From Porphyridium purpureum (Eukaryota; Rhodophyta; Bangiophyceae; Porphyridiales; Porphyridiaceae), in contig VRMN01000011.1 in the NCBI GenBank assembly GCA_008690995.1, forward strand, positions 186,001 to 250,000: a DNA stretch of 64,000 nucleotides. Direction: 5' to 3'. Within the stretch, counting starts at the first letter, position 1. Every line of letters begins with the position of its first letter. The position numbers and the translations under genes are program-made. Under the pieces are notes generated by a model, which did no database searches, was not told the DNA's origin, and saw nothing but the letters and a program-made list of their open reading frames with translations. Below are positions 28,846 through 35,348 of this stretch, one piece after another.

Positions 28846-29081
28846 TCTAGACTACATGTTCATGTTACCCTTGACTGCGTAAAGATTTTCATGTGTGTTC
28901 ACCGTTCCAAGTCGCGCTCGCGAGTAAAGAAAACAGTGGTCTGCGGACCGTGGTCTTTTCGGATGTTTCCAAGTCTTTAAACATGTGACTGAACCGCACA
29001 TGCCCTTCCACCCACTTGAAATGTCTCGCGGTCAAGCTCAGGACAGGTGTGGACGCGTGGACGCGCGAAGCAATTCTCGAG

Positions 29082-30263
29082 ATGGCATTTGTTCTTCCGT
29101 GGAATGGGCTCTCTGCGGCTCAACGGCGCTCCATTCATGACGACTCGAGCGAGCGAGGATGGGCCTGGGCTCGTGGTCGCCATTCCGTATCGTGCATGCG
29201 TCGCGCGGCGCACCTTTATCCTCTCCGCATGATGAGTACCAGGGCGGTGGCGGATTCGGCTGCAGCCGTTCCGTGGAAATGTCCCAACTGTGGGACGCGT
29301 GTGGTGACCGCGATCCACGACCAAGACACAGCTCTGCCGCAACGTGGAGAGTGCGTTTCCTGCCCTGAATGTTACGCGCCGGTAGCTCGACGAACGGGCC
29401 GCGGGCGAGAATACGTGTATGATGTTGCTGCGACACCGAACAGCCTTTCCGTCGAGTCCCTCTTCAGATTGGATGATGTGCAGTCGCAGATGCAAGCATT
29501 GCTTGAAACCGAGCTCCAGCTTCTTCCACTGGCACGTGCCGCGCCGAGAGGCAAGAGCATGTTTCAGAGCGCGTTGGTATCATTTGCGTACGAGCGAGGC
29601 TGGCGCGCTCAGTTTGAGGATGCTGGCTTTCTGGGACCACAGAGAGAATATGAACGCATGATGCAGTTTCTTGGAGTTGCAGGCGGGCTCGGCAGGAGCA
29701 GTGAGATCAAATTTGGGCAGGACAAGAAGCCTCTTGATGTTGCTCTCGATCTAAGCTGCGGCAGTGGTTTCATGGCTCGAATGCTGAGCGCGGGCGGCTA
29801 CTTCTCCCACGTCGTCGGGGTCGATTCCAGCGAGGCAATGCTCCGAGAAAGTGTCGCTCGCTGCACAAAGCCTGCACTGCAACGCGGCATCACATGGATT
29901 CGGGCAGATGCGCAAAGGCTTCCCCTCACTGACAACAGTGTAGACTTGATTCATGCCGGCGCGGCACTGCACTGCTGGCAGCAGATTCCAGATGTGCTTG
30001 CAGAAGTACACCGCACACTCAAGCCCGACGGAGGCAAGTTTTTCGCGACGACGTTTGCTGAGCCAAACGTAGGGCCCGCCATGCGTCTTCGTAACTTCCC
30101 TGTGATTTCGCAGATGGCGAGCGCGGCGTGGAGTTCAACCTTTCGCGCATTTGCTAATGGGGATGAGCTTATTTACATGTGCCGGAATGCCGGGTTTGCG
30201 AAGAACATGATCCAGGTCGAGCGCATCCAGTCGTGTCTCATCCTCACGGCCACGAAAACATGA
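29082..30263 (+). CDS. Plastid methyltransferase of the At1g78140/At2g41040 type
   Basis: A 393-residue protein starting MAFVLPWNGLSAAQ; the open frame begins upstream at a TTG (29016), but ATG 29082 gives the plastid-type start. A small zinc-ribbon-like module comes first: CPNC (67-70) and CVSCPEC (91-97). Next is the family block SMFQSALVSFAYERGWRAQF (159-178) followed by GFLGPQREYE. The SAM-binding domain has LDLSCGSGFMARML (222-235), VVGVDSSEAML, LPLTDNSVDLIHAGAALHCW and LKPDGGKFFATTF. The same order occurs in plant plastoglobule methyltransferases of unknown substrate, sometimes suggested to act in quinone or chlorophyll metabolism. It follows ftsH on the same strand by 236 bases, with its own promoter presumably in between. 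Confidence 0.87.
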   Translation: MAFVLPWNGLSAAQRRSIHDDSSERGWAWARGRHSVSCMRRAAHLYPLRMMSTRAVADSAAAVPWKCPNCGTRVVTAIHDQDTALPQRGECVSCPECYAPVARRTGRGREYVYDVAATPNSLSVESLFRLDDVQSQMQALLETELQLLPLARAAPRGKSMFQSALVSFAYERGWRAQFEDAGFLGPQREYERMMQFLGVAGGLGRSSEIKFGQDKKPLDVALDLSCGSGFMARMLSAGGYFSHVVGVDSSEAMLRESVARCTKPALQRGITWIRADAQRLPLTDNSVDLIHAGAALHCWQQIPDVLAEVHRTLKPDGGKFFATTFAEPNVGPAMRLRNFPVISQMASAAWSSTFRAFANGDELIYMCRNAGFAKNMIQVERIQSCLILTATKT

Positions 30264-30303: not shown

Positions 30304-31769
30304 CTAAAGAGCAGAGCAACTTATTTTTTGCATGGCAAAGAAATAAGTGCTGGTCCCCGAACCGATGAGCTTCGGACTGCACGCACACATCAAGAAGTCG
30401 ACGAGGTCGTCGGGAATCGGTCGCGGTCGGTCACGGTTGAGTATAGCGATGCGCTCAGAGAGGTCGCGACGAGTCCACACTGTGCGAGTGCGTGGTTGTA
30501 TCTCTCTTAATATGTTTGTCTGGAGCTCCTCTACGGTTGCGTCCGTCGCCAAGTAAATTGCGGGCATGAGTACTTTGCCTGGTATCTCGCTTGAGTTAGA
30601 CTTGGAAGCAAAGGCTTGCCGAAAGGAGTCGAGTGATCTTACAATCGCCGCCATCGTGTGACTTCTACTTGCCATCACGTTGGTGTCCATGCTTTCACTC
30701 CCGCCCCACCGCAAATGCAGGCATGCATCGTAGGGCATTTCCTGTTGAGTGTCATGGACCCATGCACGGAGCTCTGATTGAAACACGAAAGAGGGCAAAC
30801 TGCCCGATTCAGGCGCAGAACTCCGCAATTGCGCTCGGCCATCCTTTAGATAGTGGAGGTTTCGCTTTGGTATCGGATTAAATCCACAACAGAACCCGCT
30901 GGTCGCCAGAACCTTCACCACTTCCTTTTTGGGGTCGTCCCTCATGGACGTCAGGTTGTACGCCGGAAGGATCCTCTGCACGCTTGCCGCCTGCGCACAA
31001 GTACGCATGAAGTCTCTGAAGCGGACCCACTCCACCACAACCAGATCATCATCGACACCCGCGTGAATGTGCAGGAGATCAGTCCAGAATGGCCTAGCGC
31101 TCAAGGCAGCATGGTCAAGGCAAGCGTACTGCAATGTTGGATCCGACTCAATAAGAGCTGGTTCGACCTGCTCTGGCACAGAGACTGCACCAACGCTCCA
31201 GCAACGGGAGAAATGTTCAGTGATGGGTGGCAACACCAGCGTGCGGTTTACAAGCATGGCCACCTGCAGCGCGATGCTGAGAAATTTGAACTGGTTGCCG
31301 AATCCCCAGCGCGTGTGGAAGGTCATAAAGTGCGCCTGGTGCATTTTGGACGAGCATCTACTCTTCTCATCGACCACTCCGGCCGTCACATACGCAGGAT
31401 ACTCATTCAACCCTGCTTGCCAGTCGTACGGTGCCGCTTTGTCGAGCTTGGCGTAACGCCCAGCTGGTTGCCGCCTTCGCTAATCTGCAGCACCTGCAGC
31501 GCGATGCTGAGAAATTTGAACTGGTTGCCGAATCCCCAGCGCGTGTGGAAGGTCATAAAGTGCGCCTGGTGCATTTTGGACGAGCATCTACTCTTCTCAT
31601 CGACCACTCCGGCCGTCACATACGCAGGATACTCATTCAACCCTGCTTGCCAGTCGTACGGTGCCGCTTTGTCGAGCTTGGCGTAACGCCCAGGGTTGCC
31701 GCCTTCGCTAATCTGCAGCATCGCACCGAACGCTGCCGCGAGGAACACGGCGTGCGGAACGATCCTCAT
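30304..31769 (-). CDS. O-fucosyltransferase-like glycosyltransferase, two exons proposed
   Basis: Proposed exons 31494-31769 and 30304-31263 (minus strand), 411 residues, joined across a 230-base intron that is itself one copy of a tandem duplication. The product begins with a secretory signal peptide (MRIVPHAVFLAAAFGAML). It carries GDP-fucose O-fucosyltransferase family hallmarks: HTRWGFGNQFKFLSIALQ, CLHLRWGG, IYLATDATVEELQTNI, and a terminal GSGTSTYFFAMQ. It would act in the ER or Golgi on glycoproteins or polysaccharide. Without splicing the frame breaks at the junction (first open part 31407-31769; second part from about 31410 down), since 230 is not a multiple of three. The ATG at 31769 is chosen over a TTG at 31805. 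Start codons of this gene and of SDHAF1 are only 12 bases apart. Confidence 0.78.
31261..31720. repeat. 230-bp tandem duplication within the fucosyltransferase-like gene
   Basis: Copy 1 is 31261-31490 (230 bases) and copy 2 is 31491-31718 (228 bases), with CA shared at the edges. The two are identical by eye apart from a 2-base difference (CAGCTGG against CAGGG). The duplicated segment contains exactly one ACCT (AGGT on the gene strand), and it lies at the repeat edge. The near identity means a very recent event or an assembly artefact. Confidence 0.9.
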
Positions 31770-31781
31770 CCGCCGGCCACG

Positions 31782-32024
31782 ATGATGCGAAAGACCGGGC
31801 TGCAAACGCGCGTGCTCTCACTCTACCGCGCCTTTTTGCGCGAAGCGCGCCGGCTCGACGGTGGTGCGCGGGAGCGATACGAACAGCACGTCCGCTCACA
31901 ATTTCGAAGCGACGCACAGCGCATGGCCAAATCGAGCGTGGACCGAATCGAGTACGTGCTCCGCGTCGGATACAAGAAGCTCGAGCTTGTCAAGACGCCT
32001 GGGTTTCGCGGATTGGGTGAATGA
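31782..32024 (+). CDS. SDHAF1: Succinate dehydrogenase assembly factor 1 (LYR protein)
   Basis: An 80-residue LYR-motif protein. It has LQTRVLSLYRAFLREAR (the LYR tripeptide), VRSQFR, SVDRIEYVLRVGYKKLELVKTPGFRGLG and a C-terminal Glu. The R-I-E-Y and R-x-G-x-K/R-x-L pattern is that of SDHAF1, which escorts iron-sulfur delivery to the Sdh2 subunit of complex II in the mitochondrial matrix. Two ATGs in tandem (31782, 31785) are both usable. The length matches the family (80-115 residues). It is divergent to the fucosyltransferase-like gene with a 12-base gap and convergent with COX20, another mitochondrial assembly factor. Confidence 0.88.
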   Translation: MMRKTGLQTRVLSLYRAFLREARRLDGGARERYEQHVRSQFRSDAQRMAKSSVDRIEYVLRVGYKKLELVKTPGFRGLGE

Positions 32025-33828: not shown

Positions 33829-35019
33829 TCAGGAAGCACGCCCATCCTTCGTGCTGTCGTAACCCAGCAGAGAAAAGTCCTGTGCAAACTTCTGCTGCCA
33901 TATTTGAGTCAGAGCCGGGGTGAAGTATGTTGAGCTCGCTTTCGATGCACCCGTCGAGAGAAAGTTGATTTCTTCTGGCGTCGGCAACGAAAGACCCATC
34001 TGCCCGAGCGTCTGGAGTATGAAGCTTGAGTCCTCCTTCATCCTTTCAAAATGACCAATATAATCGTATGGTATCACATCCATCCCGCATAAAAAGGTTT
34101 GCGGCGCCCAATGCTCATTCATCTCGTAAGCAGTCTGCATCTCGACGCGACGCGCAAACTCGCCAAATGTGATCCTGCCGTACTTGGCTGGCGTCGTATC
34201 TGCGCGCTTAAAAAAGCGCTCGCCAAACAAGTGCTTCATGTACAAATCATACTCTTGACTGTCGACCTCTTTCTGCACAAACTTGTTGAGGAACGCACTC
34301 ACTGCGCGCGGTAGAGGGTCGCGTACAAATACAACTTTCATGATGGAGTCGTCCTCCAACATATCCGCAGCCTCGTCGACGGGGAAATCGACAAGATACG
34401 TGAGTCCACTTTTCGAGCGGTCATTCACAATCTGGATGTCGGCCTTATCATCCATGCCGTCAATCTTGCGGATCATGTACTTCCATGCCGAATTCGCTAC
34501 CTTCGGGATCGGGCAGAAAATCATGCGCGTTCGCGAGCTGTATATGAGTCGCTTCAGGATGCCCCGTTTCGAAGCTTGACTGACTTGCGCGCCAGCCAAA
34601 TTATTCCCGTGTGCCTTTCTAAACTCAATGCGCTCGTCTGCTGACATTTCCTTCCATGTCCGTCTCTTTGTTTCCGGACGTGCCGCAGCCTCGCCAGTTG
34701 TGTTCTCCGTGCTTTCCTTCTGGTCTGACGTAATCCCCTGCAGCAACAGTCCGCGCTTGGCCCCACTGAGCGGGCGCGCCAGCTTAACGCCACGATCTTC
34801 CTGGAGGCTCCCGAATGCCGAAGGCGACAACAACGACAAGGTGCTGAACGGCAACTGCGCAATACAGGAAAGAGCAACCAGCACGGCCAAAAGTAAAACA
34901 GCGAGCAGTGGCTGTTTCATCATTTGGCCTGTCTTCATGCGTGCCGAGTTGGCGATCGCGGGGAGGGGCACGGGTTTAGAAAGCTTGTCGTACGGCAACT
35001 CTGCTTCCGATCTTTGCAT
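33829..35019 (-). CDS. Golgi carbohydrate sulfotransferase (sulfotransferase family 2)
   Basis: Type II membrane protein of 396 residues that should transfer sulfate from PAPS to a sugar chain. It has a short cytosolic N-terminus, one membrane anchor (about 37-56, PLLAVLLLAVLVALSCIAQL) and a stem. The 5'-phosphosulfate loop FCPIPKVANSAWK (168-180) and the 3'-phosphate motif KVVFVRDPLPRAVSAFLNKF (about 228-247) follow. The C-terminal HWAPQTFLCGMDVIPYDYIGHFE block is typical of the HNK-1/chondroitin 4-O family. The frame extends to a GTG at 35196, but the first ATG is at 35019 and gives a normal type II topology. Porphyridium-like algae secrete sulfated polysaccharide, so a cell-wall role is plausible; the acceptor cannot be told from sequence. 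Confidence 0.88.
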   Translation of the reverse strand: MQRSEAELPYDKLSKPVPLPAIANSARMKTGQMMKQPLLAVLLLAVLVALSCIAQLPFSTLSLLSPSAFGSLQEDRGVKLARPLSGAKRGLLLQGITSDQKESTENTTGEAAARPETKRRTWKEMSADERIEFRKAHGNNLAGAQVSQASKRGILKRLIYSSRTRMIFCPIPKVANSAWKYMIRKIDGMDDKADIQIVNDRSKSGLTYLVDFPVDEAADMLEDDSIMKVVFVRDPLPRAVSAFLNKFVQKEVDSQEYDLYMKHLFGERFFKRADTTPAKYGRITFGEFARRVEMQTAYEMNEHWAPQTFLCGMDVIPYDYIGHFERMKEDSSFILQTLGQMGLSLPTPEEINFLSTGASKASSTYFTPALTQIWQQKFAQDFSLLGYDSTKDGRAS

Positions 35020-35348
35020 CGTCAGGTGTAGTTCCGATTCTGTCCCGGGCAAAGTCACAAGCGGTTTCTGCGCATGGCGGTAAGCGCGGATGGCGGTCCC
35101 GTGTTTCGCGCGGATGCCCGCCGGGTCAAAGCTTGCGACGCGAACCGACGAACGCCGCAAGTAGACCCAGTCCTGGTTGCGGTGCGTCAACCGCACAGCT
35201 CCAATACACGAGCGCGACGCCGGAAAGGATTAGCGAACACTCCAGCGCAGCGAATTGCGCTAGGGTTCCAAAACAGAGAGATTTTAGGGTTTCCCCTCAC
35301 ATGGAGGGTATGATTGTTTGACATTGTTTTACCATGATACACTTCATA

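Follow-up and report, generated by a model that had tools for sequence, protein, structure and literature searches.

This locus raises the question of whether a near-perfect tandem repeat in a transferase-like gene of Porphyridium purpureum is an intron at its birth, a duplication retained in the mRNA or a copy that exists only in the assembly. The gene lies on the minus strand of the window (the whole 64,000-nt stretch of DNA that was analysed). A reading of the letters alone, called here the sequence-only reading, had proposed that the repeat is a newborn intron made by tandem duplication.

The tandem repeat and the gene that it interrupts

Positions 31720-31491 are directly repeated, head to tail on the minus strand, as positions 31490-31261. 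The upstream copy (31491..31720), which starts inside codon 17 of the transferase gene, comprises a unit of 228 nt plus a 2-nt overlap at the joint, while the downstream copy (31261..31490) is a unit of 230 nt containing two extra bases; 2 bp (TG) are common to both units at the joint. The extra bases, AG on the gene strand (CT on the plus strand) at 31464..31465, lie in the downstream copy 26-27 nt from the copy-copy joint and are the sole difference between the copies. The near-identical 230/228 repeat with one 2-bp indel is exactly as the sequence-only reading described it, and a count gave one AGGT for each of the two copies. For an exact tandem repeat of 203 nt, chance is excluded by a wide margin. 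The repeat is the only two-copy tandem of at least 100 nt found with Tandem Repeats Finder and with a scan for exact 20-mers in 344 kb, that is the 64-kb window and 280 kb elsewhere in the genome.

In the parent sequence the left edge of the unit runs from GCGA into TGCTGCAGATT, the right edge runs from GCTGCAGGTG into GCC, and the 7-mer GCTGCAG is found within 10 nt of both breakpoints. At least 2 bp were shared at the joint in 17.5% of 50,000 random breakpoint pairs placed 228 apart. A 7-mer common to the 10 nt around both breakpoints was found in 1.7% of these pairs, a measure picked post hoc with the sequence already seen. It was also observed that the 2-bp insertion at 31464-31465 changes CGGCAACC to CGGCAACCAG, and that CGGCAACCAG recurs 173 nt further along the repeat unit, at GNQ codons. 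The insertion looks as if it had been copied or confused from this second site.

The implied gene model consists of exon 1 (31494..31769, 92 codons, with a hydrophobic, signal peptide-like N-terminus), a putative 230-nt intron (31264..31493, CAG/GTGCTG ... GCTGCAG/GTG) and exon 2, which runs through the stop codon (30304..31263). Excision from 31493 to 31264 removes exactly 230 nt, GTGCTGCAGATT...ATCGCGCTGCAG, and the resulting frame of 411 aa is identical to the hypothetical protein FVE85_8326 of P. purpureum (P0001), the sole record matching the frame. The proposal that this excision restores the reading frame therefore held in full, the product being the deposited protein itself. Without the excision the frame meets a stop after 120 aa; with it the frame is open over 411 aa and no further lesion was seen. 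The FVE85_8326 protein is taken here as a gene model and not as a transcript, and, judging from the identity of the two proteins, the public model seems already to include the 230-nt intron.

The sequence-only reading had called the product an intact member of the O-fucosyltransferase family. The frame is intact, as stated, but the family assignment falls short, since the match to PF10250 (GDP-fucose protein O-fucosyltransferase) scores 21.8 bits against a gathering cut-off of 31.5 and covers residues 79-108 only. One source labels the record an O-fucosyltransferase family protein; the product is termed O-FucT-like here because its score is below the Pfam cut-off. This weak match crosses the joint of exons 1 and 2. 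The same match is present without interruption when the downstream copy is read unspliced, and it is therefore not evidence for splicing. A word-based search of 5.8 billion proteins, which requires shared 5-residue words and was followed up to E 10, returned only the protein's own record. No relatives were found in viral contigs and there was no clear paralogue in the alga's own genome, where the best match was a weak 26% stretch at E 0.067.

The coding potential of the gene was scored with a training set that excluded it. Codons 1-65 scored 8.2 in frame, where coding pieces average 6.1 (sd 4.4); none of the other five frames scored above -4.9. Codons 66-92 (81 nt) gave 1.6 in frame versus 3.0 on the opposite strand. 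For exon 2, four 195-nt pieces were scored, with results of 0.5, 6.0, 1.8 and 0.7; these values are positive and mostly low, and for each piece its own frame was the best of the six. By codon statistics the duplicated stretch is thus largely coding, with codons 66-92 undecided. Since the first 65 codons look coding, a retained duplication would truncate the protein at 120 residues.

Intron fit, splice signals and RNA reads

The sequence-only reading had counted the presence of AGGT, the restored frame and a length not divisible by three as support for an intron. The weight of this fit was assessed with 400 simulated 228/230-nt duplications placed in long reading frames of the P. purpureum genome, these being mechanical open frames of at least 900 nt that may include retrotransposon frames. 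A GT-AG excision that reopened the frame was available in 400/400 simulations, with a median of 79 such excisions apiece, and an exact AGGT excision was available in 193/400. In the observed repeat, 72 of 325 GT-AG pairs reopen the frame, as counted in a slightly different way from the simulation. AGGT occurs 675 times in 119 open frames of at least 900 nt; an initial set of 46 longer frames has 385 occurrences in 127,746 nt, and a fraction of 0.503 of random 228-nt stretches has at least one. Two thirds of lengths are expected by chance not to be divisible by three. An AGGT together with a frame-restoring excision is no commoner here than chance, and given the simulations the intron fit carries almost no weight. 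Nor does it follow, as the sequence-only reading suggested, that splicing is why the duplication was tolerated; a false assembly copy or a dispensable gene would leave the identical sequence.

The donor, CAG/GTGCTG, has six of the nine letters of the donor consensus, which is the general splice-site consensus and not that of P. purpureum itself. Of 675 AGGT sites in long frames, 422 (62.5%) are equal or better, and the donor is an average AGGT site. The acceptor tract is 67% pyrimidine from -20 to -3, which places it in the top 7.2% of 3350 AG/G sites in long frames. CTRAY, a branch-point-like motif, is absent from the last 73 nt of the putative intron, and looser branch-point-like strings are found at -66 (TTTAT) and -62 (TGAC). 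Two competing AGs lie ahead of the acceptor, their ends 13 and 27 nt from it, and use of the farther one would give an in-frame alternative with a 203-nt intron and a product of 420 aa. The GC content of the putative intron, 0.565, lies between those of the exons (0.58 and 0.54) and the segment is not distinctive.

A spliceosome exists in this alga, given that PF10598 (RRM_4), which we take to be a Prp8 domain, was found at E 3.7e-37. Searches with the Rfam models of U1 and U6 gave no match; prokaryote control genomes were likewise silent and the result is hence uninformative. In the 64-kb window there was no Rfam match at gathering score and no tRNA with the bacterial setting used. A splicing study of P. 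purpureum reportedly found that introns are retained at high rates and that variation at the 5' splice site is linked to the level of splicing. In the published accounts, Porphyridium is said to have a reduced set of 110 spliceosomal genes (PMC5880011), and 235 spliceosomal introns are given for P. purpureum, a figure cited from the 2013 genome paper (PMC10866757). The genome is thus reported to be very poor in introns.

A coding-potential scan of the 344 kb for further introns picked out 10 regions, with 54 donors and 131 joins between them, and none of the joins was convincing by eye. At least three of the joins fall in gag-pol-like retrotransposon frames, again judged by eye, and others resemble neighbouring genes. 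The scan is a weak one, with a mean coding score of 3.7 per 120 nt, and yields neither a consensus nor an intron density. An earlier scan with a simpler score, which gave 16 joins from six donors, was dropped.

RNA reads joining 31494 to 31263 had been put forward as a means of deciding the matter. The spliced joint, ...GCTGCAG/GTGGCC, is also found uninterrupted where the downstream copy ends. The 2-bp indel, which is all that distinguishes the copies, lies about 200 nt from this joint; short RNA reads alone are therefore indecisive. They cannot tell splicing from a single-copy gene, and such joining reads would look positive in every scenario. The other tests proposed, namely RT-PCR, long-read DNA and the comparison of strains, were judged sound.

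Nor does the deposited gene model separate the possibilities. As described in PMC6811547, the models drew on published RNA reads, ESTs and red algal proteins, among which, to judge from a reference number, was the 2013 genome set. The older Illumina library of genomic reads is described there as 150 x 150 bp. The RNA would show one copy in all scenarios but retention, and an earlier assembly from short reads may have merged two real copies into one. The gene model therefore cannot separate an intron from a false copy.

Origin of the second copy

The leading explanation is a false tandem copy generated by the hybrid assembly and bridged by annotation, to which we give a probability of roughly one half, a judgement and not a measurement. 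A real duplication that goes mostly unspliced is placed second, a newborn intron third, and all other explanations together come last and are improbable. For the false copy, we infer that an assembly fault made the joint and that annotation made the gene model upon it. The cell would have a single 228-nt stretch within the uninterrupted first coding part of the O-FucT-like gene, which would itself be single-copy. The MaSuRCA hybrid assembly would have laid end to end two ends that overlap by 228 nt, a 2-base error at one end having broken the overlap. Gene modelling would then have passed over the false copy by calling a GT-AG intron of 230 nt, the transcript or earlier protein model being one-copy and the AGGT being present by happenstance.

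The assembly, from strain CCMP1328, is described as a MaSuRCA hybrid of 1.0 Gbp of Nanopore reads with the older Illumina reads (PMC6811547), and this origin was counted in favour of a false copy. So was the position of the single difference, 26-27 nt from the joint, which is where an unmerged end carries error. The otherwise open gene with its 65 coding-like codons, the fact that any such copy can be bridged by a GT-AG excision and the reported scarcity of introns in the genome were counted on the same side. Against a false copy, there are no Ns at the joint or elsewhere in the 344 kb. Nanopore coverage is about 45-fold (1.0 Gbp / 22 Mbp) with a read N50 of 14.9 kbp, and reads of such depth and length should span the repeat easily. 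The absence of any further two-copy tandem of at least 100 nt in the 280 kb outside the window, a weak test covering 1.3% of the genome, indicates that the assembly is not littered with similar copies. The edges, with 2 bp shared and GCTGCAG at both, look biological and slippage-like. No alternative allele was found on another contig; the DNA of the locus has one place in the assembly.

If the duplication is real, the unspliced or mostly unspliced state seems more likely than an efficient intron because the donor is average and the genome intron-poor. A recent, real duplication that is spliced rarely or not at all, so that the mRNA retains both copies and translation stops at 120 aa, is a tentative second choice. 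The 228 nt would have been duplicated by slippage or by end joining at a 2-bp homology, and the gene would be damaged in strain CCMP1328 or the allele would be polymorphic. The short sequence shared by both edges fits such an event, and the average donor, the missing CTRAY and the two AGs ahead of the acceptor count in its favour. The gene may also be dispensable, having neither relatives in the protein collection nor a clear paralogue. This account is opposed by a transferase frame free of a second lesion and by the one-copy deposited protein which, if the model was based on RNA, would mean that retention does not predominate.

That the duplication is real and that the GT of the upstream AGGT and the AG of the downstream AGGT are used to remove the 230 nt, leaving the protein unchanged, is doubtful and rated somewhat below the unspliced state. 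The splicing would probably be partial, with some retention. The intron would have only just arisen, in a red alga with few introns and a reduced spliceosome, and its exonic and intronic copies would be one 2-base indel apart. The exact match of the 230-nt excision to the deposited protein favours it, as do the acceptor tract with the loose strings TTTAT and TGAC, and the 2-bp change is found in the copy that would be intronic. The machinery is present, to judge from PF10598 and the 110 reported spliceosomal genes (PMC5880011), and the route is established in other systems (PMC3443670). Against it stand the intron-poor genome, the average donor, the competing AGs, of which the farther gives the in-frame 203-nt intron, and an unremarkable GC content between those of the exons; it also presupposes that the duplication is real. 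A newborn intron is possible and unproven; its main support comes from features that chance supplies, and nothing in the letters shows splicing.

Very improbable is a real duplication that is harmless unspliced because translation starts at Met66 in the downstream copy (31344), the repeat being a doubled 5' region between divergent genes; the 15 bp between the start codons of the head-to-head gene pair and a downstream copy leading into an intact O-FucT-like frame of 391 codons from stop to stop would suit it, but the full coding score of codons 1-65 (8.2, other frames -4.9 or less) and their hydrophobic, signal-like start weaken any such promoter-only role.

Known systems, neighbouring genes and other repeats

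PMC3443670 treats the tandem duplication of exon sequence as an accepted way of gaining introns, so that the sequence-only reading was right to call the duplication of an AGGT site a known route. As assembled, the present repeat resembles such gains in being a head-to-tail duplication of an exon stretch with an AGGT in each copy, and a precise removal of 230 nt would give back the parental coding sequence. It differs from the established cases in that the splicing is putative and the duplication known from an assembly alone, and in that the copies are nearly identical and the genome very intron-poor. In the potato RdRp case described in PMC4974935 most of the signals came from a parental intron, unlike here. 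The false copy, our preferred explanation, has its likeness in the false assembly duplications described in PMC9516828 and PMC2864568, where an extra copy likewise led to a false gene structure. The copies treated there were haplotype-born and gave false gene gains, whereas the present one is a gapless 228-nt head-to-tail copy within one exon, and a candidate only.

Proven recently gained introns are described as few (PMC4974935), and the first recognition of a fresh duplication by the spliceosome has mostly been deduced from introns of greater age. Should the DNA contain both copies, the locus would be a live, easily tested case in an intron-poor lineage and, if spliced as well, a very young example of a known intron-gain route. 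If the copy is false, a public gene model may present an assembly copy as an intron, which short RNA reads alone would fail to reveal, and surveys of recent intron gain by duplication would need checks at the level of the reads.

The transferase gene stands head to head with a gene for an LYR-motif protein (Complex1_LYR, E 1.8e-12) at 31785..32024 on the plus strand, whose upstream region is the tandem repeat. As the start codons are 15 bp apart, the 5' untranslated region of each gene would fall in the coding region of the other. A search of the protein collection with the LYR-motif protein gave one candidate and none at E 0.001, which may reflect a deposited model of different length. Intact frames were also seen at 28989-30263 on the plus strand, for a methyltransferase-domain protein, and at 33829-35229 on the minus strand, for a Sulfotransfer_2 protein.

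Other repeats were observed in passing. The contig of the window (G000:C18) contains direct repeats at 290344-290670, 295316-295438, 306141-306939 and 335899-336695, and each recurs 4.6-5.0 kb further on. They are probably retrotransposon long terminal repeats; inspection by eye showed gag-like frames with a CCHC knuckle pattern between them. A second contig (G000:C2) carries a tandem array at 177930-178639 with a 156-nt unit in 4.6 copies and 92% matches.
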